Source: Streptomyces sp. L2 | GTDB taxonomy: Bacteria > Actinomycetota > Actinomycetes > Streptomycetales > Streptomycetaceae | Length of the DNA: 64,000 nt | Direction of reading: 5' to 3' | Assembly: GCF_004124325.1 (NCBI RefSeq) | Contig: NZ_QBDT01000001.1 | Coordinates: 7,068,001 to 7,132,000, forward strand | In this document: piece after piece, positions 14,876 to 26,889 of the stretch | Position numbering within the stretch: position 1 is the first letter of the stretch | Layout of the letters: the number at the start of each line of letters is the position of its first letter | The notes under the pieces: generated by a model | Databases searched by the model: none | Seen by the model: only the letters and a program-made list of their open reading frames with translations | What the model was told of the DNA's origin: nothing | Translations under genes and position numbers: made by a program

Positions 14876-16366
14876 TCAGTCGCGGACGGGCACTCGTTCG
14901 ACGGGCGTCTCCTCCGCAGCGGACCGGGCGACCACGACCGACGGTGTGGTACGGCGGCTGCGCAGGCCGGTGAGGGTGATCAGCAGGCCGGCCACGGCGA
15001 TGCCGGTGACGACCATGAAGCCGGGACGGTAGCTGTCCAGGACGCCCTGCGGGGTGGCGTGCGCGGGTGCCCCCGCGGTGACCACGGCCGTCACCACCGC
15101 GAGGAAGACCGCGCCGCCGACCTGCACCGAGGTGTTGAGCAGGCCCGAGACCATGCCCTGTTCATGGTCCTCGACCCCGTTGGTGGCCTGGATGTTGAGC
15201 GAGGGGAAGACCAGCGCGCAGGCCGCCCCGATCAGCAGCATCGACGGCAGGACGACCGCCGCGTAGACCGGGTCGAGGTCGACGCGCAGGAACAGGGCGT
15301 AGCCGAGCACCATCAGGGCGAAGCCCGTGGCGATGAGACGCGGGGTGCCGAAGCGGTCGACGATCGCACCGACCTTCGTCGACGACACCGCCACCAGCGC
15401 GCCCGCCGGCAGGAACGCGAGCGCGGTGTGCAGCGCCGACCAGCCGAGCAGGGACTGCATGTACAGGGTGGTCAGGAACTGGAAGCCGACGTACGACCCG
15501 AAGAAGGCCACCGCGCCGAGCTGGGCGCGGACCTGGCTGCCGGAACGCAGCACCCCGAGCCGGACCAGCGGGCTCGGCGAACGCCGCTCGACGAGGACGA
15601 AGGCGGTCAGCAGGACGGCGACGGCGAGGAACGACAGCAGCGTGCGGGCGGACGCCCAGCCGTCCTCGGGTGCGCGGACGACGGTGAACACCAGCAGCAG
15701 CATGGAGGCGGTGCCGAGGATCGCGCCGGGGATGTCGTACCCGTCGTGGTTCTTCTCGCGGGCGCTGCGCGGCAGCAGCTTCAGGCCGGCGGCGAGGGCG
15801 ACGAGGGCGATGGGCGCGGGCAGCAGCATCGTGAAGCGCCAACTCGCCTCCGTCAGCAGGCCGGACAGCACCAGGCCCATGGAGAAGCCGGTGGCCGCGC
15901 AGGTGGTGTAGATGGAGAGCGCGCGGTTGCGCAGCGGGCCCTCCGGGAACGTCGTCGTGATGATCGACAGGCCCGCCGGCGCCGTGAAGGCCGCGCTGAG
16001 GCCCTTGATGAAGCGGCTGGCGATCAGCAGCGGACCGGAGTCGACCAGCCCGCCCAGCAGCGAGGCGAGCGCGAAGACGCCGAGGGCCACCAGGAACACC
16101 TGGCGCCGGCCGAGCAGGTCGGCGGTGCGGCCGCCGAGGAGGAGCAGCCCGCCGTATCCCAGGATGTAGCCGCTGACGATCCACTGGAGCGTCGACGTGG
16201 ACAAGTGGAGGTCGGAGCCGATGGAGGGCAGGGCGACGCCAACCATCGACACGTCGAGCGCGTCCAGGAACATCGCGGCGCAGAGCACGAGCAGCGTGCC
16301 CCAGAGCCGGGGGGTCCAGCGCACCGCCGAGGAGGGCGCGGTGGGAGTGGTGAGCGGAGAGGTCAT
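14876..16366 (-). CDS. MFS drug exporter, DHA2 (14-helix) family
   Basis: A 496-residue proton-driven exporter. The first helix has the family motif LDALDVSMVGVALPSI, and motif A, GGRTADLLGRRQVF, sits in the loop between helices 2 and 3. Fourteen hydrophobic stretches fit the DHA2 group (QacA/EmrB type), which expels drugs or natural products. Its ATG at 16366 is divergent from a MarR regulator at 16452; the 85-base AT-rich gap holds a clean inverted repeat, so MarR control is expected. The MITE lies about 30 bases past its 3' end. Confidence 0.94.
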   Translation of the reverse strand: MTSPLTTPTAPSSAVRWTPRLWGTLLVLCAAMFLDALDVSMVGVALPSIGSDLHLSTSTLQWIVSGYILGYGGLLLLGGRTADLLGRRQVFLVALGVFALASLLGGLVDSGPLLIASRFIKGLSAAFTAPAGLSIITTTFPEGPLRNRALSIYTTCAATGFSMGLVLSGLLTEASWRFTMLLPAPIALVALAAGLKLLPRSAREKNHDGYDIPGAILGTASMLLLVFTVVRAPEDGWASARTLLSFLAVAVLLTAFVLVERRSPSPLVRLGVLRSGSQVRAQLGAVAFFGSYVGFQFLTTLYMQSLLGWSALHTALAFLPAGALVAVSSTKVGAIVDRFGTPRLIATGFALMVLGYALFLRVDLDPVYAAVVLPSMLLIGAACALVFPSLNIQATNGVEDHEQGMVSGLLNTSVQVGGAVFLAVVTAVVTAGAPAHATPQGVLDSYRPGFMVVTGIAVAGLLITLTGLRSRRTTPSVVVARSAAEETPVERVPVRD

Positions 16367-16393
16367 GCCGGAGACATTACATGTGCATGCATG

Positions 16394-16409
16394 AAATGCA
16401 AACGCATTT
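16394..16409. promoter_or_regulatory. Probable MarR operator
   Basis: AAATGC and GCATTT are perfect 6-bp arms around AAAC, centred between the divergent exporter and MarR genes. Related ATGCATG sequence precedes it (16384-16392) and GATGCAAC follows. The local base composition is far more AT-rich than its surroundings, as expected for overlapping promoters and a MarR site. Confidence 0.65.
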
Positions 16410-16451
16410 AATTACGATGCAACAAAGCGCTTTCTCTGCTACGGTGCGCTC

Positions 16452-16847
16452 ATGGCGGCGAACAGGGCCGAGCAGGCGCTCGTGGAGCAGTGGCGGGACA
16501 TCCTCGCGCTGCACGCCCGCACCCAGTGCGAGCTGGACCGGGTGCTGCACGGACACGGCCTGTGCGCCAGCGACTTCGAGGTGCTCGACCTCCTCTCCGA
16601 GGGCGTCGCCGCCGACGGCGGCTGCGCCTACCGCGTCCAGGAGATCTCCGAGCGGATCCACCTCAGCCAGAGCGCGCTGTCCCGGCTGGTCGGCCGCCTG
16701 GAGAAGGACGGCCTCGTCGAGCGCGCGATGTGCCCCGAGGACCGCCGGGGCGTGCGGGTGGCCCTCACGGAGAAAGGCCGCGCACTGCACGGCAGGGTCC
16801 TGCCGGTGCAGCGCGCGGCACTGGCCCGGATGCTGGCGGAGACCTAG
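16452..16847 (+). CDS. MarR family transcriptional regulator
   Basis: A 131-residue winged-helix repressor. The recognition segment is IHLSQSALSRLVGRLEKDGL and the wing follows with CPEDRRGVRVALTEKG, the DRR-G signature of MarR proteins. It is shorter than average (usually about 145) at the C-terminus but has both dimerisation helices. Divergent from the DHA2 exporter, it most likely represses exporter and itself until a drug-like ligand binds. Confidence 0.93.
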   Translation: MAANRAEQALVEQWRDILALHARTQCELDRVLHGHGLCASDFEVLDLLSEGVAADGGCAYRVQEISERIHLSQSALSRLVGRLEKDGLVERAMCPEDRRGVRVALTEKGRALHGRVLPVQRAALARMLAET

Positions 16848-16893: not shown

Positions 16894-17982
16894 TCAGTCC
16901 ACCAGGGAAAGCAGCGGGAAGGCGTCGACGCCGGGACGGTGCCGGGCCAGCAGATCGCGGACGTGCTCGGTCACGCGCCAGTCGTAGCCCAGGGACTCGA
17001 TGGCGCAGCGCACGCTCACGTACCGGGCGCCGGGGTGGCCGGCCCGCTGAACCTGGAGCCAGGCGTCCAGTTCCCCCAGGAAGGTCCCCCGGTCGATGCG
17101 ATCCCGCGTGACGTGCCGACGGACGGCCTGCCGGCGCTCGCGCGCGACCTCGTTGAATCCATACAGCTTCAGACTCACCTCCTCCGCGCCCGCCAGGGTG
17201 GCCGGACGAGCGCTCAGCAGGCCCCGGGCGAGGGGGTTGTGCTCCAGGGCCCGTGACAGCGGCAGGCTCCACACCCGGCCGCTGCGATCGGTGAGGGGGA
17301 GCGCGCCGGACCTCGTGAGACAGGGGCCGCGCAGACCGGCGGCGGCCGCGGCGAGCAGGGCGCTGGCCTCCGACGGATGCCAGCGCAGGACGTCCGCCGC
17401 CCACGGGGGAAGGGTGGGTCCGAGGCCGCTGCCCGCACCGGGGAGGCGGGCCAGAAGGGTTTCCTCGGGCACTTCGCCGTCGAGGCCGGGGCCGGTGACG
17501 TGGACGGTGGTTCGGACGCCCGCCAGCCGGCACGCCGCGAGCGCGAGCGCGTCCAGCAGGGGGCTGGCGAGGGTGGGTTCGTCGCCGTGGGCGAGGACGT
17601 CGCCGCCCACGTCCACGACGCTGACGCGGTCGGCGCCGAGTGCCCGAGCGGTCCGCCCGATCTGATCGGCGAGGCCCTCGACTCCCTCGTGGGGGTCGAG
17701 GAGCGCGAGGCGGGTGGGCAGGTGCCCCGCGAGCCGGGGCAGGGTGGAGACGCGTGGTGCGACCGGCCTGGTGCCGGTGGTGACGAGCGCTACCGGCAAG
17801 GCATCGTGGTCGAGGCCGGTGAAGTCGTGCGCGGCGAACGGCCCCGGAACCGGATCCACGCTGGGACGCTCCCAGCCGTAGGTGAGGACGACCGCGTCGG
17901 CCCCGGCGCCCGTGCTTGTGTGGACGAGTGCGGTGCCGACCGGGTCACCGCCGCCGCCCGCCGCGATGAACAGCTCCGTCAC
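16894..17982 (-). CDS. DUF1152 domain protein coupled to the radical SAM gene
   Basis: A 362-residue soluble protein starting at a GTG that overlaps the radical SAM stop (GTGA). The N-terminus FIAAGGGGDPVGTALVHT, with a run of four glycines then DPVG, and the later SVVDVGGDVLAHGDEPTLAS match the DUF1152 family as I recall it. That family has no established function; the glycine-rich start suggests a nucleotide or phosphate site. Further on are SARPATLAGAEEVSLKLYGFN and a C-terminal helical part. Tight coupling to a radical SAM enzyme suggests it acts on that enzyme's substrate or product. Confidence in the gene is high, in function low. Confidence 0.85.
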   Translation of the reverse strand: MTELFIAAGGGGDPVGTALVHTSTGAGADAVVLTYGWERPSVDPVPGPFAAHDFTGLDHDALPVALVTTGTRPVAPRVSTLPRLAGHLPTRLALLDPHEGVEGLADQIGRTARALGADRVSVVDVGGDVLAHGDEPTLASPLLDALALAACRLAGVRTTVHVTGPGLDGEVPEETLLARLPGAGSGLGPTLPPWAADVLRWHPSEASALLAAAAAGLRGPCLTRSGALPLTDRSGRVWSLPLSRALEHNPLARGLLSARPATLAGAEEVSLKLYGFNEVARERRQAVRRHVTRDRIDRGTFLGELDAWLQVQRAGHPGARYVSVRCAIESLGYDWRVTEHVRDLLARHRPGVDAFPLLSLVD

Positions 17983-19412
17983 GAAGCCGCTCGCGCGGTA
18001 CGGATGCCCGAGATGCCGAGCGTCGTGCCCATGTGCTTCCGGGCGCGCTTGTTCTGCTCGTGCAGGCGCTCGTAGTACGCGCGGTCGAGCCGGACGACGG
18101 TGTCGGAGAAGAACATCCAGGACAGGATGTCGCGGTACTTGAAGCCCCGCGGGGTGAGCTGGACGCGGCGGCCCAGGCGGCGCAGGAGTCCGGTCTCCTC
18201 GGCCGCGTCCAGGATCGGCTCCCACAGGTGGGCCTTCTCCTGGTAGCCGAAACGGTCCAGTTCGGCGAGGTCGAGGTCGAAGGTGTCCAGGACGAGGCGC
18301 TTGCGGATCAGCTCCTCGTCGTCGAGGACGAAGCCGGTGACGGGCCGCAGGGTGTGGGCGCCGGCCCGGCGGATGTACTCCGCCACTTCGGACATGGACG
18401 GTTTGACGGAGCCCATCATGTAGTCGAGGACGCCGGTGTAGGAGCGGGCCCCGACGCCGAGGCCGAGCAGCGGCACGCCGTGGAAGGTGAGCACCTTCTG
18501 CCGGTAGCCGCCGCGGCCGAGCTTCTTGTAGCGGACGGAGCCCTCCTGCACGTAGCCGTGGTCGGTGAAGACCTGGCGGGCGTAGTCGTAGCGCTCGTAC
18601 AGGTTCGGCGACTGCGCGTACTGGTAGGCGCCGGTCCGGGAGAACCAGGCGTCCGGGCGGACGGTCAGGAAGTACGTGCTGATCGTGGTCGGTTCGAGCT
18701 TGGCGAGCTCGTCGACGGACGTCCGCCACGTCTCGTCGGTCTGGCCGGCGAACCCCATGATGAGGTCGGTCGACAGGTCCGGCAGACCCTTGTCGTGCAC
18801 GATCTCGACGGCCTGGCGGATGACCCGCTCGCCCGCCTGGCCCCGGCCGGCTTCACGGATCTCCTTCGGTACGAGGGACTGGATCCCGATGTTGGCCCGG
18901 GTCAGGCCGAGGTGCAGCAGGCCCTCCAGGGTGCCGGGATCGCTGACGATCGAGTCCGGGGTGGCCTCGATCGCCACTTCCTCCACGGTGGAACGCCAGT
19001 TGGGGTACACCTCGTCCAGCGTGCTGAACAACTGCTCGAAGTGGCGCAGGGACAGCAGGCTCGGGGTGCCGCCGCCGATGTAGACCGTGCGCAGCCGGCG
19101 GGCGCGGATGATGTCGGCGTGGTCGCGCAGTTGCGTGCAGAGCGCGTCCATGTACGCCGTGTAGACGTCGGTGTCCTCGCTGATGACGGTGTACAGATTG
19201 CAGAAGCCGCACTTGTAGCGGCAGAACGGCACGTGCAGGTACAGGTTCAGCTCGGGGACCTGATACAGGCTCAGGTCCCGCTCCCAGAGGTCCTCGACGG
19301 TCCACCGGCCCTCCAGCGGCCGGTAGGCGGAACGGGACGGATAGGAGTAGTTGTACGGCGGGATGACGCCCTGTCGGATGTAGTCGGTGAGCTGTGCGGC
19401 GTAGCCGGTCAC
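17979..19412 (-). CDS. Radical SAM protein, HemN/HemW-like
   Basis: A 477-residue enzyme from a GTG start with GAGAGGGG upstream. The iron-sulfur cluster motif CRYKCGFC (C64, C68, C71) is the CX3CX2C radical SAM signature, and YIGGGTPS (111-118) is the SAM-binding GGGTP motif shared with coproporphyrinogen III oxidase-like proteins. A HemN_C-like winged domain is at about 380-450. Many HemN-like proteins in biosynthetic loci catalyse cyclopropanation, methylation or other radical C-C chemistry rather than haem synthesis. No haem genes are nearby, and the gene faces two ATP-grasp ligases, so a natural-product role is more likely. It is the first gene of a two-gene operon. Confidence 0.9.
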   Translation of the reverse strand: MTGYAAQLTDYIRQGVIPPYNYSYPSRSAYRPLEGRWTVEDLWERDLSLYQVPELNLYLHVPFCRYKCGFCNLYTVISEDTDVYTAYMDALCTQLRDHADIIRARRLRTVYIGGGTPSLLSLRHFEQLFSTLDEVYPNWRSTVEEVAIEATPDSIVSDPGTLEGLLHLGLTRANIGIQSLVPKEIREAGRGQAGERVIRQAVEIVHDKGLPDLSTDLIMGFAGQTDETWRTSVDELAKLEPTTISTYFLTVRPDAWFSRTGAYQYAQSPNLYERYDYARQVFTDHGYVQEGSVRYKKLGRGGYRQKVLTFHGVPLLGLGVGARSYTGVLDYMMGSVKPSMSEVAEYIRRAGAHTLRPVTGFVLDDEELIRKRLVLDTFDLDLAELDRFGYQEKAHLWEPILDAAEETGLLRRLGRRVQLTPRGFKYRDILSWMFFSDTVVRLDRAYYERLHEQNKRARKHMGTTLGISGIRTARAAS

Positions 19413-19703
19413 GCGAAGCGGCCCCTCTCGTGCACGTACGACGGCTGGGTCGCACGAAAGTCAATCCGTGACCGGCGGCGGTCATCCAGGCCCGGTTTCC
19501 ACGAACCCCGGGGTGGTGGGAGCGCGCCCTCCTGTGGGATGGTCCGAACTCCCGTGGAGTGGTCGCTTCCGCAAAGCCGGGCCCCTAGGATCCGGCCCCC
19601 GGCCGGGGCTGGAGGTTGCTACAACGGTTGTCGTGAAATCGCCCTCCCGCTCTGGTTGTTACGTTCATGGCCCGGGCCCGCCGGCTGCGGTCTACTGCGC
19701 GGC
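19413..19703. promoter_or_regulatory. Divergent promoter region of the radical SAM/ATP-grasp locus
   Basis: This 291-base gap separates the two operons. It contains two small inverted repeats, ACTCC-CGT-GGAGT at 19548-19560 and ACAACGGTTGT (one-base centre) at 19621-19631. The stretch 19616-19670 is less GC-rich than its surroundings and holds TACGTT at 19660. The ATP-grasp GTG has no evident ribosome site, and TCTACT lies about eight bases before it, so a leaderless message is possible. No regulator gene is present in the locus. Confidence 0.5.
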
Positions 19704-20936
19704 GTGAAAAGGATCCTGCTGATCGAAGCGCTCGCAAACTCAGGCCCCTATCTGCTGGACGCCGCCCGCGCACTCGGCGCGCACGTCTTCGTCGCCACCC
19801 ACGAGGACGTCTGGGAGAGCTACCCCGCCGCCCTGCGCGAGAAGATCCACGGCACGGTGTTCACCGACCTCACGGACCCGGGCCGGGCCCTGTCGGATCT
19901 GACCGCGTTCGCCGGGACGACGCGGATCGACGCGGTGGCCGGCTGCTGGGAGTTCTTCACACCGCTCGTCGCCCACCTGGCAAGCCGCCTGGACCTGCCC
20001 GGCAACGACCCCCTGCGGGCCCAGGCGTGCCGGAACAAGGCGGCCATGGCGCGGGCCTTCCGGACGGGCCGGGTGCCCGCGCCGAGAACCGTCAGCGGGT
20101 ACACGACCGCTGAGGTGACCCGTGCCCTCGACCGTCTCGGCATCGGGTTCCCGGTCGTCGTCAAACCCGCCGAGCAGGGCGGCTCCTGGGGCGTCAGCGT
20201 AGTCACCGGACACGAACAGCTCGACGCCGCCGTACGGCACGCCCAGTCCTGGCCGGTCGCCGCGCCGCACGGCCTGGCCCTGGACCAGCGCGTCCTCGTC
20301 CAGGAATACGTCCCCGGGCCCGAGTTCAGCCTCGACACCGTGGTCTGGCGCGACGAGTACTTCCACCTCCCCGTGGTCGAGAAGCACACCACCGACGGCG
20401 CCTACCGGGCCGAGACCGGACACACCTGCCCGGCGCCGCTTCCGCCCGCCACCCTCACCGCGGTCCGGGCGGCGGCCGAACGGGCTCTGCGGGCGCTCGG
20501 CATCCGCAACGGCGTCGCGCACACCGAACTCAAGATCCCGCCCGAGGCCGGTCCCACCGTCATCGAGGTGGGCGCACGCCTCCCCGGAGACCACCTCGTG
20601 CACGTCGTCCGCCACGCCTCCGGCATCGACGAGGCCCGGGCCTACCTCCAGGCCGTCCTCGACGAGAAACCGGACATGCCCGAGCCCCGGGAAGGGGCGT
20701 GCGCCATCCGCTTCCTCACCCCGCCACGGGCGGGCACCTTCCGCGGCGTGACCGTCCCCGGCCGGCCCGCCGGCCTGATCGGCCGGCACATCACCACCGA
20801 GCCCGGCGCCACCGTCGGCGGCGCCCACGACAACTCGGCCCGCCTCGGCCACCTGGTGTTCACCGCCCCCACGCCCGCCCAGGTCAAGGCCCACGCCGCC
20901 CACGTACTGGCCCACACCCGCATAGAAGTGAGCTGA
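19704..20936 (+). CDS. ATP-grasp ligase 1
   Basis: A 410-residue ATP-dependent carboxylate-amine ligase from a GTG (VKRILLIEALANSGPYLLDA). The ATP-grasp core is visible: FPVVVKPAEQGGSWGVSVV (149-167, with lysine 154), VLVQEYVPGPEFSLD (197-211) and the metal site VIEVGARLPGDHL (286-298). Such enzymes activate a carboxylate as an acyl phosphate and join it to an amine. The last 50 residues (VTVPGRPAGLIG and onward) form a small C-terminal domain as in BtrJ/PurK-like ligases. It is separated from the second ligase by one base, so the two probably act in sequence. Substrate unknown. Confidence 0.9.
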   Translation: MKRILLIEALANSGPYLLDAARALGAHVFVATHEDVWESYPAALREKIHGTVFTDLTDPGRALSDLTAFAGTTRIDAVAGCWEFFTPLVAHLASRLDLPGNDPLRAQACRNKAAMARAFRTGRVPAPRTVSGYTTAEVTRALDRLGIGFPVVVKPAEQGGSWGVSVVTGHEQLDAAVRHAQSWPVAAPHGLALDQRVLVQEYVPGPEFSLDTVVWRDEYFHLPVVEKHTTDGAYRAETGHTCPAPLPPATLTAVRAAAERALRALGIRNGVAHTELKIPPEAGPTVIEVGARLPGDHLVHVVRHASGIDEARAYLQAVLDEKPDMPEPREGACAIRFLTPPRAGTFRGVTVPGRPAGLIGRHITTEPGATVGGAHDNSARLGHLVFTAPTPAQVKAHAAHVLAHTRIEVS

Positions 20937-20937
20937 C

Positions 20938-22188
20938 ATGCAGCGCATCGCCTTCCTCCGGTCCGCCCACATCAAGCGGGCCGACCCGTACATCCACGGC
21001 ATCGCCCCCGTACTGACGGCGCTCGGCGCCGAGGCCCGCCTCTTCCACACCCACGGCGACTGCGATCCCCGGCTGTTCCCGGGGACCAGCGAGCGGCTCG
21101 ACCCCGCCGCGACCCCGGACGAGTTCGTCGCCCGCGTGCGCGCCTGGGGAGCGGACGCCGCCGTCTCCATCTCGCTGCCGGACGAGAACGCCCTGCGCGA
21201 CGCGGTCGTCAAGGCCAAGCTCGAAGCCGCCGGTGTCCGCACCGTCATGACGCCCCTCGCCGCGACGCGCGTCCTGTGCGACAAATGGGAGACCAAACGG
21301 GTCCTGAACGCGCACGGCCTCCTCACCCCGCCCGGCGTCCTGGTCGACAGCGACCTCCTCAACGGCCGGGCGCTGCCCGTCCCGGCCTACCCGGACGCCG
21401 TCCGCCTCGCGGCCCACGACCTCGGCCATCCCCTCCTGGCGAAGCCGCTGTGGGACTCCACCAGCATGGGCATCGAGTTCCTCCCCGATCCGGCCGCCCT
21501 CGACCGCTACCTGGCCGCGCGGCCGGCGGCGCACGCCGTCCTGGAGAAGTGCGTCACCGGACGGCTCTGCTCGGTCGACATCGTCGGCGCCGGAGGCCAC
21601 TACACGGTCATGCCCCTCGTCCGGACCGGCACCGCGGGCGGCCCCCCGGCGTTCACCTTCGAGGACCTGCGATACGTCGACCCCGCCGAGGGCGACGACT
21701 TCGCGCCCACCGCCCGGCGCCTGGTGGACCTGTGCACGGAACTCGGCGTCGAGGGGTCCGTCAACGTCGACATGATCCACGCCGACGGCGAGTACCACGT
21801 CCTGGAGATCAACCCCAGGATCGGTGGCGCCACCACGCTGTCCATCGCCGCCAGTGGACTCAACACCTTCGTCGCCCTCCTCGCCATCCTCGACGGCACC
21901 TGGCCCACCCGCACCGAGGCGCCGGCCGAGCGCCTCGCCGTCGAATGCCTGACCGCGAACCCCAGCCCCACCCTCCTTGACGAACTCGGCGCCCGCGTCG
22001 ACCTCGTCACCTGCCACGACCTGGTCATCGACGGCCACGACCACGGCGGCATCCTCACGTTCACCGTGGAACCGGGCGACGAGCGGCGGGTGCTCAAGGA
22101 ACTCACCGAGCTGTGCGCGCAGACCGGCTTCATCCCGGCCCCCATGCTCGACAAGATCCGCCGCCTCCTGACCCGCGCGGCCCGGTGA
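20938..22188 (+). CDS. ATP-grasp ligase 2
   Basis: A 416-residue ligase different in sequence from its neighbour. It begins MQRIAFLRSAHIKRADPYIH, has the ATP-binding HPLLAKPLWDSTSMGIEF (164-181, lysine 169), a cysteine-containing VLEKCVTGRLCSVDIV strand and the metal-binding YHVLEINPRIGGATTLSIA (286-304, glutamate 290 and asparagine 292). It resembles D-Ala-D-Ala ligase/carbamoyl phosphate synthase-like ATP-grasp proteins with a carboxylate acceptor. It overlaps the transporter gene by GTGA. A pair of unlike ATP-grasp enzymes suggests stepwise assembly of a short amide-linked product. Confidence 0.9.
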   Translation: MQRIAFLRSAHIKRADPYIHGIAPVLTALGAEARLFHTHGDCDPRLFPGTSERLDPAATPDEFVARVRAWGADAAVSISLPDENALRDAVVKAKLEAAGVRTVMTPLAATRVLCDKWETKRVLNAHGLLTPPGVLVDSDLLNGRALPVPAYPDAVRLAAHDLGHPLLAKPLWDSTSMGIEFLPDPAALDRYLAARPAAHAVLEKCVTGRLCSVDIVGAGGHYTVMPLVRTGTAGGPPAFTFEDLRYVDPAEGDDFAPTARRLVDLCTELGVEGSVNVDMIHADGEYHVLEINPRIGGATTLSIAASGLNTFVALLAILDGTWPTRTEAPAERLAVECLTANPSPTLLDELGARVDLVTCHDLVIDGHDHGGILTFTVEPGDERRVLKELTELCAQTGFIPAPMLDKIRRLLTRAAR

Positions 22189-23561
22189 GCATCCCCGCCG
22201 GCAGGCGTCCGGCGCGCCACAGCGAACCACCGGACCGTGGCCGTAGCCGAGCCGTACGCCCGGACGGCCGCCGTGACCGGCGCCGTGCCCTGTTCCCGGA
22301 CGGCCGCCGGGGACGGCGGGCGCGGGCCGGGCTGCCCGACCTCACCGGAGCGGGCCGCCTCGTCGCCGCCCACGCGGTCGACAGCCTCGGCACCGGGCTC
22401 GTCTTCGCCTTCACCGTCGTCTACCTCACCCACACCACCCACCTCCCCCTCGACCGGATCGGGGCGGCCCTCACCGTGGGGAACCTCCTCGCGCTGCCCG
22501 CCCCGGCACTCGGCGGAGTCCTCCTCGACCGCCTCGGCCCGAAGAAGGTCGTCGCGCTCGCCAACCTCGTCTGCGCCGCCGGATTCGCGGCGTTCCTCGC
22601 GGTGCGCCCGGCGTGGCAGATCAGCCTCGCCTACTTCGTGGTGCAGGCCGGTATCAACCTGTACTGGACCGCCGCCCGCAACCTGGTCCCCCTGGCCTGC
22701 GTGCCCGGCGAGGAGCGCCTGTGGTTCGGGTTCATCTCGTCCCTGCGCAACCTCGGCATCGGCGCGGGCGCGGCCGCGTCCGCGCTCGCCCTGGCCCTGT
22801 TCGGACCGGGCAGCCTGTCCGCCCTCATCGCAGTGAACGCGGGGACGTTCCTGTGCGCGGCGCTGCTGTACCTCACCTGGAAGCCCGCGAGGGACCCGGC
22901 CACGCCGGACACCACCGGCCCCGCCGACGACGGCGGGGCCGTCCGGCAGGGGACCTGGAAGGAAGTGGCGCGGGACGGCCGCTACCTGCTGCTCGTCGCG
23001 GCCAACCTGGCCTTCGTCCTCGCGCAGATGGTCCCCCCGGTCCTGCTCGCCGTGTACGTCACCGGCACCCTGCACGCGGGTGCCTGGATCCCCGGCACCC
23101 TCCTGGTCGTCAACACGGTCGCCGTCGCCGTCCTCACCCCGGCCATCACCCGACGCTCGGCACGGCACGGCCCGGACCGCGCGATCGCCGGCGGTTTCCT
23201 CGTCGCCGTCGGCTCCTTCGGCCTCTTCGCCGCACCCCTCGCCTGGACGGGCGCGCCCGGCTGGGCCGTGCCGGCAGTCCTCGCGGCGGCGATGCTGCTG
23301 TTCACCCTCTCCGAGATCCTCAGCTCTCCCGCGCTCAACGAACTCTCCGTCGCCCGCGCTCCCGCCCGGGGCAACGGCCGCCACCAGGCCGCCTTCCAGC
23401 TGTCCTGGTCCGTCGGCGGCGCCGCCGCTCCCGTCGTGCTCACCGCGCTCCTGAGCCGGCAGCCTGCCCTGCCGTGGCTGCTCCTCGCCCTCCTCAGCGT
23501 GCTCGCCGTCCCCGTCGCCCGCGCCCTCGCCCCACCCGACCCGGAGGAACCCCAGCCGTGA
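22185..23561 (+). CDS. MFS transporter of the ATP-grasp operon
   Basis: A 458-residue transporter with about twelve membrane helices, starting at a GTG coupled to the ligase stop. The first 50 or so residues are rich in arginine and proline (RRPARHSEPPDRGRSRAV) before the first helix at LVAAHAVDSLGTGLVFAFTV; this is unusually long for the family. The helix 2-3 loop has LDRLGPKKVVALAN in the motif A position. Placed between biosynthetic-type genes and coupled to both sides, it is the best candidate exporter (or self-resistance pump) for the locus product. Confidence 0.88.
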   Translation: MSIPAGRRPARHSEPPDRGRSRAVRPDGRRDRRRALFPDGRRGRRARAGLPDLTGAGRLVAAHAVDSLGTGLVFAFTVVYLTHTTHLPLDRIGAALTVGNLLALPAPALGGVLLDRLGPKKVVALANLVCAAGFAAFLAVRPAWQISLAYFVVQAGINLYWTAARNLVPLACVPGEERLWFGFISSLRNLGIGAGAAASALALALFGPGSLSALIAVNAGTFLCAALLYLTWKPARDPATPDTTGPADDGGAVRQGTWKEVARDGRYLLLVAANLAFVLAQMVPPVLLAVYVTGTLHAGAWIPGTLLVVNTVAVAVLTPAITRRSARHGPDRAIAGGFLVAVGSFGLFAAPLAWTGAPGWAVPAVLAAAMLLFTLSEILSSPALNELSVARAPARGNGRHQAAFQLSWSVGGAAAPVVLTALLSRQPALPWLLLALLSVLAVPVARALAPPDPEEPQP

Positions 23562-24559
23562 ACCTCACCTGCGTCCACGACATCGCAGACGTCCCCGCCG
23601 CGGAGTGGGACGCCCTGGACACCCCGGCCGGTCTCTACCTCTCCCACCGGTGGCTCGCCGCCCAGCAGCGGGATCCCACCGCCCACGTCCGCTACGCCCT
23701 CGTCCGCGAGGCAGGCCGGCTGATCGCCGCGGCGCCGATGCACGTCGTGGACACCGAGCCCAACGACCTCTACCGGGTGCACGAGCTCGTCGCCGGCCGC
23801 GCGCCGGCCAGGACCCTGCTCGCGGGAGCCCGCCGCGGCTACCTCAACGGCCCGCTCCTGCACCCCGGTCTCAGTCCGTGCCGGCGGCGCGCGGCACTGA
23901 ACCGGCTGGTGTCAGCGGCCGGTTCGCTCGCCGCCGCCCAGGGAGCGCGGCCCTGGTGGCTGTACGTCACCGACCCGGCCGCCGCCGAACTCGCCGACGC
24001 GTGCGGCACCGAGCCCGTCCAGGTGGGCCAGGACGCCCGCATCCCGCTGCCCGGCACCACGTTCGACGACTACCTCGCGGGCCTGCCCTCCAAGCGGCGC
24101 GTCGCCGTCCGCCGCGAACGCCGCGCGTTCGCCGAAGCCGGGTACGAGCTGCGCATCCTGCGACTGTCCGAGTGCGCCGACACGGCCGGCGCGCTCCTCG
24201 CCCAACTCCAGGCGCGTCACGGCCATGCGGTCGACCCCGACGCCATGGCCCGGCTGCTGCGCGACCAGGCGGACGGCATGGCCGACAGCGGGATCGTCCT
24301 CGCCGCCCACGCCGGCGCGCACATGGTCGCCTTCAGCCTCTTCTACCGCCACGCGGACACCGTCTGGCTCCGGGCCACCGGCTACGACTACGCCCGGCTG
24401 CGCGCCGCGCACGAGTACTTCAACCTGGTCTACTACCTCCCCATCGAGCACGCCTACGCGCACGGCGCGACCGCACTCCATGTCGGCATGGAGTCCCTCC
24501 GGGCCAAGGCCCTTCGAGGAGCGGTGATTTCCCCGCTGTGGGCGGTCGAAGGGGCTTGA
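23558..24559 (+). CDS. FemAB/GNAT-like acyltransferase
   Basis: A 333-residue soluble protein starting at a GTG inside the transporter stop. The second half has the features of the GNAT-fold, FemAB-like group (BioF2-like or 'peptidogalycan biosynthesis' families): SKRRVAVRRERRAFAEAGYE, then FSLFYRHADTVWLRATGYDY, EYFNLVYYLPIEHAYAHGAT and HVGMESLRAKALRG. FemAB-type proteins transfer aminoacyl groups from tRNA, related ones transfer acyl groups from CoA. It is the last gene of the operon and probably decorates or extends the ATP-grasp product. Exact donor unknown. Confidence 0.82.
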   Translation: MNLTCVHDIADVPAAEWDALDTPAGLYLSHRWLAAQQRDPTAHVRYALVREAGRLIAAAPMHVVDTEPNDLYRVHELVAGRAPARTLLAGARRGYLNGPLLHPGLSPCRRRAALNRLVSAAGSLAAAQGARPWWLYVTDPAAAELADACGTEPVQVGQDARIPLPGTTFDDYLAGLPSKRRVAVRRERRAFAEAGYELRILRLSECADTAGALLAQLQARHGHAVDPDAMARLLRDQADGMADSGIVLAAHAGAHMVAFSLFYRHADTVWLRATGYDYARLRAAHEYFNLVYYLPIEHAYAHGATALHVGMESLRAKALRGAVISPLWAVEGA

Positions 24560-24587: not shown

Positions 24588-25328
24588 CTAGATCTGCGAG
24601 GTCTCCCGCCACAGGTCGGCCAGCGCCCGGTCACCGGTCACCGTGGGCACCGTCGCCCTGTTCCACAGGGCCAGGTACAACCGGCCCGCGGGTCCGGACA
24701 GTTCGGCCTCAGCCTCCTCGGACGCGTCCCGCGAGGTCACCGGCGGCTCGGCGGACAGCCGTACGGTCCACACCGCGTTCGGACCCGCGTCGGTCGCGCG
24801 GACGCGCAGCACGCGCGGCGTCTCCGTCCGGACCCGGCTCCTGGGGCGGGCGTGGAAGCCGCGCAGCAACTCGTCGATGCCGTCGGCCGCGAAGTCGGTG
24901 GCGACGGGGGCCGGTGTGCCGCCCCGCGCGGCCTCGGCGTCGTACCGGTGGACGGTGGTCTCGTGCGCCTGACGCCGGGTCCAGAACGCCAGTGGCGAGG
25001 GGCAGGGCGCCGGATGGAAGGTCCAGCAGTCCAGGTCGGCCGGTGCGGCGGCCAGCGTGTCGACCAGCCGGCGGTGACCGTCCCGGTACCAGCCGATCAG
25101 GTCGGCGCCGTCCAGGTCCGGGAGGTCACCGGCCGGGCGGGGCTCCGTGTGCCCCTCGGCGACGAGCTCGGTGGCCCAGCGGTGCACCGCGCCCGTGTGC
25201 CTGAGCAGGTCCCGGACCCGCCATCCCGGGCACGTCGGGACCTCGGCGCCGGTCCCCGCCTCCTCGGCGGCTCCGCCCAGCAACCGCCCTTCCTGGTCCA
25301 GCGTCTTGAGGAACTCCGCAGTCTCCAT
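24588..25328 (-). CDS. Maleylpyruvate isomerase family mycothiol-dependent enzyme
   Basis: A 246-residue protein of the DinB-like mycothiol-dependent family. The N-terminal four-helix domain has TCPGWRVRDLLRHTGAVHRW and the metal-binding RQAHETTVHRYDAEAARGG with the usual H-E-H spacing; a C-terminal SCP2-like domain follows. Members use mycothiol, the actinobacterial thiol, for isomerisation or detoxification. The ATG at 25328 is chosen over upstream codons with poor sequence. It is convergent with the acyltransferase gene. Confidence 0.88.
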   Translation of the reverse strand: METAEFLKTLDQEGRLLGGAAEEAGTGAEVPTCPGWRVRDLLRHTGAVHRWATELVAEGHTEPRPAGDLPDLDGADLIGWYRDGHRRLVDTLAAAPADLDCWTFHPAPCPSPLAFWTRRQAHETTVHRYDAEAARGGTPAPVATDFAADGIDELLRGFHARPRSRVRTETPRVLRVRATDAGPNAVWTVRLSAEPPVTSRDASEEAEAELSGPAGRLYLALWNRATVPTVTGDRALADLWRETSQI

Positions 25329-25629
25329 GGAGCAGAGTCTGCCGGACGAGCGGACGAGAGGACGATCATTTTCGGCAGGGCTGTGGCCGGCCGGCGAGGG
25401 TGGCTTCCGCCCCGGGCCGCCCGGGCGCGGCCTGCCGCCACCCGACTCCCCGTGTGAAGCGAGCCGGTTGTGCATCTTCGGTGCCCCGTCCGTGCCGCCA
25501 CGCGGTCTCCCACCGTGCGGGACGGAGAGGGCGATCGGCAGATGAGGGTGCCGCTCGTACCGGCCTGCCGCCCCGCCGCACGACCCCGTGCCGTGCCGTC
25601 CGCCTCGGATCTGATGCGCCGGCCGTGGC
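25329..25629. other. Intergenic region without a gene
   Basis: 301 bases between two same-strand genes. It should hold the promoter of the maleylpyruvate isomerase-like gene. I see no convincing reading frame with a start signal, no strong hairpin and no repeat; the small open frames here are artefacts of high GC content. Confidence 0.6.
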
Positions 25630-26889
25630 TCAGCCGGCCAGCGCCCTGCGCGTCGACGCCCCGATCAGCGCGGCCGTGGCCGCCAGTGCGGCGACGCTGG
25701 TGAGGGCCGCGGGGAGGGACAGCCAGTCGGCCATGAAGCCGATCGCCGGGGGTCCGAGGAGCATGCCGCCGTAGCCGAACGTGGACGCGACCGCGACGCC
25801 GGACGGACCTGCCAGCACGCCGGCCCGTTCCACGGCGACCGGGAACAGGTTCGCGAGTCCGAGTCCCGTGACGGCGAAGCCCGCCAGCGCCACCCACACG
25901 GAGGGAGCGAGGGAGCCGAGCAGCATGCCCGCCGTCGCCGTGGCGCCGCCGGCGATCACCGTCCGGGTCCGGCCCAGGCGTTCCAGCAGGCTCGTCCCGC
26001 TCAGCCGGCCGATCGTCATGGCGAGCGCGAAGCAGGAGTAGCCGGCCGCCGCGAGAGCCGGGGACGCGCCCAGGTCCTGCTGGAGGTGCAGGGCGCCCCA
26101 GTCGGCCATGGCGCCCTCGCCGTAGGCCGTGCACAGGGCGACCAGGCCGAGGACGACGACCAGGCCGCGGGTCCGGCTGCCCCCGGGGCGCCCCGGGCCG
26201 CCGGCCAATCCCGCCCCCGGACGGTCCGACCGGGCGACCGGGTCCGGCACGTCCGGTCGGCTCGACGGGGCTCGCCGGTCCGGCGTGGCTGGGGCCTCCT
26301 GCCGTAGCAGCGTGCGGCCGGCGACGGCTGTGACCAGCAGGGCGACGACTGTCAGGCCCAGCAGGTGCCGGGCCGGGGAGAGGGCGCCCGCGACCAGCCC
26401 GCCGACGCCCGCGCCGAGCATGCCGCCCAGGCTGAACGCCGCGTGGAAGCTCGGCATGACGGGCCTGCGCAGCGCGGCGATCAGATCCACGGCGGCGCTG
26501 TTGAACGCCACGTTGACGCCGCCGTAGGCCGCTCCGAAGAGCAGCAGCACACCGCCGAGTGCCGGTGCGGAGCGGGTGAGCGGGGGCAGCGCCACGCTGA
26601 GGGCGAGGACGGTCATCCAGGCCACGGTGACCGGATGGCTGCCGTAACGGCGGCACAGCCGTCCGGTCAGCGTCATGGTGAGCACGGCGCCCGCCGAGAC
26701 GCCCAGCAGGGCGAGCCCGAGCGTGCCGGCGGAAGCGTGCGTCTGCTGTTTGATGTCGGGGATGCGGACGACCCAGCCCGCGAAGACGAAGCCGTCCAGG
26801 GCGAAGAAGGCGGTGATCGCCGCCCGGAGCCGAGTGAGGCCGTTGCCCGGCACGACGCTGTGCGATCGGGTTTTGTTTATTTGCGGCAC
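25630..26889 (-). CDS. MFS transporter (FucP/Bcr-like)
   Basis: A 419-residue transporter with twelve helices. Seen: AFFALDGFVFAGWVVRIPDI in helix 1, a helix 2-3 loop LTGRLCRRYGSHPVTVAWM and YGGVNVAFNSAAVDL in helix 4, a pattern of actinobacterial MFS proteins distantly related to sugar permeases. A proline/glycine-rich loop of about 55 residues links the two halves. The GTG start at 26889 gives an AT-rich N-terminus (MPQINKTRSHS) and has no clear ribosome site, so a later GTG at residue 14 is possible. Substrate unknown. Confidence 0.85.
   Translation of the reverse strand: MPQINKTRSHSVVPGNGLTRLRAAITAFFALDGFVFAGWVVRIPDIKQQTHASAGTLGLALLGVSAGAVLTMTLTGRLCRRYGSHPVTVAWMTVLALSVALPPLTRSAPALGGVLLLFGAAYGGVNVAFNSAAVDLIAALRRPVMPSFHAAFSLGGMLGAGVGGLVAGALSPARHLLGLTVVALLVTAVAGRTLLRQEAPATPDRRAPSSRPDVPDPVARSDRPGAGLAGGPGRPGGSRTRGLVVVLGLVALCTAYGEGAMADWGALHLQQDLGASPALAAAGYSCFALAMTIGRLSGTSLLERLGRTRTVIAGGATATAGMLLGSLAPSVWVALAGFAVTGLGLANLFPVAVERAGVLAGPSGVAVASTFGYGGMLLGPPAIGFMADWLSLPAALTSVAALAATAALIGASTRRALAG

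Follow-up and report, generated by a model that had tools for sequence, protein, structure and literature searches.

A conserved six-gene biosynthetic cassette containing a HemN-type radical SAM enzyme in Streptomyces sp. L2

The stretch of DNA analysed here (the window) is 64,000 nucleotides of Streptomyces sp. L2 (assembly GCF_004124325.1, contig NZ_QBDT01000001.1, positions 7,068,001 to 7,132,000). Between positions 16,894 and 24,559 of the window lie six genes in two divergent operons, which encode a HemN-type radical S-adenosylmethionine (SAM) enzyme (rSAM), a DUF1152 protein, two ATP-grasp proteins, a major facilitator superfamily (MFS) transporter and a FemAB/GNAT-type protein. This locus is a real, conserved, co-inherited and uncharacterised biosynthetic cassette. 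Judged by its protein families, it would quite probably make an exported, amide-linked small molecule, and the balance tips slightly towards the six genes forming a self-contained specialised-metabolite cassette that works as in the pathway proposed below. The features, at positions of the window, are:

16894..17982, minus strand: DUF1152 protein, 362 amino acids; its GTG start overlaps the rSAM stop (GTGA)
17979..19412, minus strand: HemN-type radical SAM enzyme, 477 amino acids; C64-x3-C68-x2-C71, without the fourth HemN cysteine
19413..19703, no strand: divergent intergenic region, 291 bp
19704..20936, plus strand: ATP-grasp 1, L-amino-acid-ligase family, 410 amino acids; ends one base before ATP-grasp 2
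20938..22188, plus strand: ATP-grasp 2, 416 amino acids; GTGA overlap with the MFS gene
22185..23561, plus strand: MFS transporter, probable exporter, 458 amino acids as called; GTGA overlap with the FemAB/GNAT gene
23558..24559, plus strand: predicted FemAB-like/GNAT acyl- or aminoacyltransferase, 333 amino acids

From the divergent layout, the 291-bp gap presumably holds the promoters of both operons. One end of the 7.78-Mb contig is about 0.69 Mb away from the cassette. An earlier note on this DNA had described the gene order, strands, GTGA overlaps and one-base spacing, all of which were borne out on reading the sequence, and Pfam agrees with the family label that it gave to each of the six genes. 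It had also reckoned with homologues of the genes turning up in unrelated contexts. The opposite was found, as the six families occur together in nearly all of the loci where this could be judged.

Among 297 genomes of the same taxonomic family, 15 gave an rSAM match at an expect value (E) of 1e-50 or better, 14 of them (own genome included) at 73-100% identity and one at 33%. A phylum-wide search gave matches in 8 of 396 genomes, five of the 8 weaker. Scanning a one-genome-per-species collection with two conserved peptide patterns, which is not an exhaustive method, gave at least 43 loci. The rSAM is at least 70% identical to that of the window in 31 of these, and 27 of the 31 have enough flanking sequence to be assessed. 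All six genes are together in 26 of the 27, spread over 7.4-10.7 kb where the set is complete, and in 11 of 11 assessable loci of an overlapping set from the 297-genome search. An alignable flank of at least 800 bp was present in only 5 of the 351 locus pairs formed by the 26 complete loci and the window. Compared with two close relatives, all six genes have no internal stops and a ratio of non-synonymous to synonymous substitution rates (dN/dS) of 0.21-0.49 (the MFS gene from 22317 only), with dS serving as a guide only in DNA so rich in GC. Because the unit recurs where the flanks mostly fail to align, and given the intact reading frames and the dN/dS values, the cassette is not a chance grouping. 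The rSAM is its best-conserved member, with a mean pairwise identity of 0.78 against 0.54-0.61 for the other five (26 loci).

The caution over dS counts against this picture of a conserved unit, as do two other points. The distance matrices of the six proteins correlate at 0.83-0.96 with no species-tree control, and in Streptomyces sp. SID486 (L034) the other five genes are present with no DUF1152 match at the expected place (from 11431). Some loci vary in content. In L039 and L040 ATP-grasp 1 is placed beyond DUF1152, and a 2-oxoglutarate (2OG)-Fe dioxygenase and a gene called AG3 are added; Pfam, run on L040 only, assigns the dioxygenase to PF10014, which we take to be a family that hydroxylates free amino acids, and gives no hit for AG3, which is ATP-grasp-like by eye only. 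An extra MFS gene, also recognised by eye, is present in L029 and L031, and L165 is a decayed copy without the rSAM or ATP-grasp 1. Two kinds of carrier were considered and rejected. None of 56 pattern matches in a viral collection encodes a relative, and the 387 plasmid records that match are all below 60% identity, the best-ranked being at 33% (best 25 of the 387). The cassette is a compact, intact gene set. Public strains such as those of Streptomyces filipinensis, S. virginiae, S. parvulus, S. xanthophaeus and S. candidus have complete counterparts, so that it can be tested directly by deletion and by expression in another host.

The rSAM matches Pfam Radical_SAM at 71 bits and is homologous, over the radical SAM domain with its CX3CX2C motif, to HemN-like or class C enzymes. 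A profile of 16 rSAM rows (A2) matched HemN (1olt) at 157 bits (E 6.7e-45) over most of its length and NocN (9p2u) at 121 bits (E 5.6e-34) within the radical SAM part; both alignments bring CX3CX2C and GGGT into register. The profiles for HemN, HemW and HutW also match the window protein, as would be expected if this were a haem or other primary-metabolism locus, a HemN/HemW-like enzyme with unrelated neighbours. The scores nevertheless fall far below the NCBIfam equivalog cut-offs (HemN 121.5 of 325, HemW 130 of 205, HutW 131 of 400), as does that of the best NCBIfam match, STM4012, with 271.6 bits of 380. The HemN motif CX3CX2CXC is incomplete, the window sequence being CRYKCGFCNLYT where 1olt has CHKLCYFCGCNK, so that the last cysteine is absent. 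The enzyme also occurs in few genomes and is conserved as part of a unit. Haem biosynthesis was rejected on the scores and the missing cysteine, and a primary-metabolism role of this kind seems extremely improbable. The cassette gives a first entry point to the function of a branch of HemN-type radical SAM enzymes that reaches no NCBIfam equivalog cut-off.

In a tree of 27 rows, which includes only some of the known loci, the cassette enzymes are monophyletic (99/100) inside a 19-row clade (100/100), and in eight of the nine non-cassette rows of that clade PurA, GuaA or both lie no more than two genes away from the rSAM. These relatives are 39-65% identical to the window enzyme over most of its length, the closest being that of a Streptosporangium (L060, 65%), and none of the other five cassette genes was found in their loci. 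The order in L060 is thymidylate-kinase-like, SDR, GuaA, rSAM, PurA; in Streptomyces cylindrosporus (L064), a strain that also holds a full cassette (L071), it is DNMK, PurA, rSAM, nucleoside phosphorylase and YfbR-like HD; and in a Levyibacteriota bacterium (L070) PurA, DUF362, rSAM, HAD, PfkB. Five Clostridia metagenome-assembled genomes (L065, L066, L067, L069, L073) share the order HAD, DUF362, PfkB, small protein, rSAM, GuaA, where Pfam was run on L065 only, the other GuaA genes were recognised through a 78-89% match and the remaining genes by eye. In a sixth Clostridia locus (L072) the rSAM gene is truncated. STM4012-type and rhizobial enzymes fall outside the 19-row clade.

Several of these neighbourhoods have features of their own. 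Positions 6000-14200 of L064 have a lower GC content (~0.56-0.64) and resemble a nucleotide-modification or defence island, in which the nucleoside phosphorylase domain sits in a 643-residue protein. The Clostridia operon at 7228-13219 of L065, kept also in L066, L067, L069 and L073, has TIGR04076 as its small protein, and its GuaA, at ~617 residues, exceeds the NCBIfam model, which has 512 positions. At 13905-20343 of L060, prolyl-oligopeptidase-like, asparagine-synthetase-like and nucleotidyltransferase-like genes were recognised by eye beside GuaA, rSAM and PurA and are possibly a separate lasso-peptide cluster. On plasmids of Rhizobium tropici CIAT 899 (L076 10001-12318) and Cupriavidus taiwanensis (L077 9938-12273) an STM4012-type rSAM gene overlaps a class I methyltransferase gene, a pairing that resembles the C10P/C10Q cyclopropanase.

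The PurA proteins beside the rSAM in L060, L064 and L070 are extra copies, since a further canonical PurA is found elsewhere in each of these genomes, and L060 has a second GuaA. An alignment with five housekeeping PurAs shows WGDEGKGK retained in all three, though the loop TGR (5 of 5 housekeeping proteins) is replaced by TDL, RGE and TNL, and GGPN stands where the housekeeping proteins have GGNN or GGAN. Against the NCBIfam adenylosuccinate synthase cut-off of 402 they score 290 and 316, which are below it, and 434, which is above. PurZ of the 2-aminoadenine pathway was considered as an identity for them and rejected, the three scoring 112, 109 and 128 where the cut-off is 300. The TGR loop is presumably the aspartate-binding loop, as in E. 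coli PurA, and if so the altered PurAs probably use another nucleophile. Altered-loop PurA paralogues adjoin one and the same rSAM branch in three lineages, of which two belong to the Actinomycetota, and this suggests a kind of purine modification not described before.

One explanation of this association is that the substrate of the rSAM is itself a purine nucleotide or nucleoside, altered for example by methylene transfer or C-C bond formation, and that the cassette gives a peptidyl purine nucleoside, with the ATP-grasp enzymes and the GNAT protein attaching amino acids to the modified nucleoside and the MFS protein exporting it. The proximity of PurA or GuaA in eight of nine clade rows, the 65% identity of the L060 enzyme and neighbours such as thymidylate-kinase-like, DNMK, HAD, PfkB, nucleoside phosphorylase, YfbR-like and deaminase genes are consistent with this. 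According to PMC12871812 and PMC6050322, HemN-type enzymes can pass on a one-carbon unit from a second SAM, NocN and C10P using two SAM molecules to transfer such a unit to an sp2 carbon. The cassette itself, however, has no nucleotide enzyme, and the altered PurA loop, if it is the aspartate site that we take it to be, would imply that the nucleophile has changed and not the nucleotide alone. We consider this explanation rather unlikely.

The reading that we prefer is that the same kind of building block that the rSAM would make for the cassette is elsewhere joined to, or derived from, a purine nucleotide, as the rSAM relatives adjoin PurA-like or GuaA genes. That the purine link shares the building-block chemistry of the cassette is a tentative proposal, and several observations tell against it. 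The cassette has neither PurA nor GuaA, and a 21-kb Myxococcaceae locus (L063) has HAD and deaminase genes and likewise neither of the two. In each of the six Clostridia genomes searched a single GuaA was found, so the GuaA beside the rSAM may be the housekeeping enzyme. Loss of TGR is also not unique to rSAM neighbours, since the L060 genome has a very divergent further PurA homologue, away from the rSAM, that also lacks it.

The partner of the rSAM in the minus-strand operon belongs to DUF1152, with PF06626 matching at 229.5 bits against a gathering score of 27. Across 27 sequences, that of the window included, 56 alignment columns do not vary, and these include A7-A8-G9-G10-G11-G12-D13, G126-G127-D128, E135, G166, D168, E170, W201, P203 and E205. 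A distant homology search against solved structures gave nothing useful, and our literature search, which left subscription papers mostly outside its reach, found no paper naming DUF1152, nor one naming STM4012. DUF1152 was found in 36 of 200 genomes of the same taxonomic family (E 1e-12, own genome included). An rSAM gene adjoins DUF1152 in 14 of 30 loci, ten being the cassette and four having a different HemN-type rSAM with an EamA-type gene nearby. The enzyme in one of these four (L167) is of the STM4012 family (590 bits) and those in the other three are similar, the EamA and STM4012 labels having been profile-checked on L167 only. This adjacency supports, short of proof, the two proteins acting together. 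In 16 of the 30 loci there is no rSAM within ~1.5 kb, and with the absence of DUF1152 from L034 this weighs the other way: DUF1152 may be dispensable to the rSAM. For DUF1152 as a family, the cassette gives a first point of entry to its function.

The plus-strand operon encodes the predicted coupling enzymes. ATP-grasp 1 has PF13535 (ATP-grasp_4, 67.5 bits) and PF18603 (LAL_C2, 52.5 bits), both above cut-off, and in a profile comparison it matches BL00235 (3vot, 140 bits), an L-amino acid ligase, and BacD (~110 bits). By its domains and scores it is a member of the L-amino-acid-ligase family. ATP-grasp 2 is a Pfam ATP-grasp_3 protein whose nearest solved relatives are of the Ddl and carbamoyl-phosphate synthase types, and E290, N292, P293 and R294 are invariant in 20 sequences; it was found in 14 of 200 family genomes (E 1e-30, own genome included). 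The pair also occurs without the rSAM in four other loci, three with MFS and AG3 genes (L161-L163) and L164, and so looks like a reusable coupling module. Pfam identifies a LOG-type protein, a xanthine/uracil-type permease and two 2OG-Fe oxygenases beside the pair in L161, and by eye L164 also has the first two. The transporter matches PF07690 (MFS_1) at 92 bits. Its GTG at 22185 may not be the true start, because alignments in most relatives begin at query residue ~38-51, the N-terminal 40-50 residues being matched in few. The last protein matches PF04339 (FemAB_like) at 60.1 bits against a gathering score of 27 and PF13480 (Acetyltransf_6) at 35 bits. A sequence search gave no solved relative for it, and it was found in 29 of 200 family genomes (E 1e-20, own genome included).

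The Pfam name FemAB_like, and the resemblance of ATP-grasp 2 to D-Ala-D-Ala ligases, might suggest that these enzymes make a peptidoglycan or lipid building block for cell-envelope modification or self-protection, with no exported product. The cassette is however sporadic in its distribution (14 of 297 family genomes, own genome included), has no mur or transpeptidase gene and includes an MFS gene, and ATP-grasp 1 is a better match to L-amino-acid ligases than to Ddl. A role in the envelope is therefore very unlikely. Radical SAM and ATP-grasp enzymes also co-occur in pathways to ribosomally synthesised and post-translationally modified peptides, and the two could in principle modify a small graspetide-like precursor encoded nearby. 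Open reading frames of 18-120 residues were scanned for in 23 divergent gaps and in the 1-kb outer flanks of 27 loci. The largest linked sets cover 8 of the 23 gaps and 14 and 17 of the 27 outer flanks, none spanning all, while a single frame matches at most 8, 7 and 7 loci (gaps and two flanks) and those of the window 1 or 2. With the LAL_C2 domain of ATP-grasp 1 also against it, a ribosomal product appears highly improbable.

To return to the pathway that we favour, the rSAM, perhaps with DUF1152 as partner, would make an unusual nitrogen-bearing building block, either an amino acid or an amine. Each of the two ATP-grasp enzymes would spend ATP to make an amide bond to it, and another acyl or aminoacyl group would be added by the FemAB/GNAT protein. 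The finished compound, probably a peptide-like antimetabolite of two or three residues, would leave the cell through the MFS transporter. Whether the product of the rSAM is the amine or amino acid that is ligated is close to an even call, leaning slightly against. Weighing against the assignment of the product is that it follows from family membership, the substrates and activities of all six proteins being predicted, and that the FemAB/GNAT protein could act on peptidoglycan or lipid instead. A wider and improbable reading would have one rSAM family make a nitrogen-bearing building block for two couplings, through ATP-grasp ligases to an exported peptide-like antimetabolite, with DUF1152 as partner in this route, and through a PurA-like subfamily to a purine ring. 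The PurA-like proteins of the second route would be a new subfamily with a rebuilt aspartate site in the Streptosporangium, the Streptomyces and the Levyibacteriota bacterium. If true, this would amount to a biosynthetic logic not seen before, leading on the purine side to a new modification.

The natural-product reading of the earlier note stands as regards the co-inherited cassette (26 of 27 loci), a ligase of the L-amino-acid-ligase family and an MFS transporter, while its amide-linked product is a candidate. The note knew of no characterised pathway with this exact set, and our literature search, within the reach given above, found none. It had allowed that a known haem or nucleotide pathway might explain the genes; the haem part falls with the HemN, HemW and HutW cut-offs, and a nucleotide connection is possible through the purine-nucleotide neighbours of the nearest rSAM kin. 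These neighbours the note had missed, and likewise the pairing of DUF1152 with another HemN-type rSAM and an EamA-type gene in four loci.

At 14876-16847 of the window a DHA2-type MFS gene (minus strand) and a MarR-family gene (plus strand) lie back to back and adjoin DUF1152, and drug-efflux models match the former below their cut-offs. They were considered as cassette members and rejected, as in 14 relative stretches the MarR gene had no counterpart and the MFS gene a single weak match (L023). After the cassette, at 24588-26889 on the minus strand, are a mycothiol-dependent maleylpyruvate isomerase family gene and another MFS gene.

Among known systems, the HemN-type and class C methylases (HemN 1olt, NocN 9p2u, C10P) resemble the cassette rSAM in the profile matches to HemN and NocN, in CX3CX2C and in GGGT. 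HemN differs in the fourth cysteine, which is replaced in the cassette enzyme, and in the sub-cut-off equivalog scores, and the C10P system differs in having a C10Q-kind methyltransferase partner that has no counterpart in the cassette. The STM4012 family, of the STM4011-STM4015 operon, provides the best NCBIfam match, though the cassette enzyme is below its cut-off and in a different clade and the cassette has no STM4011, STM4013 or STM4015 partners. The STM4012 operon of S. cadmiisoli carries STM4014, which we take to be ATP-grasp-like. The relatives linked to PurA or GuaA (L060, L064, L070 and the Clostridia genomes) share the rSAM clade of the cassette and have purine-nucleotide enzymes in place of the other five genes. 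Bacilysin-type dipeptide pathways share with the cassette an ATP-grasp enzyme of the L-amino-acid-ligase type, as in BacD, and an MFS protein; relative to the usual bacilysin gene set, the cassette has the rSAM and DUF1152 instead of the anticapsin genes, together with a second ATP-grasp enzyme and the FemAB/GNAT protein.

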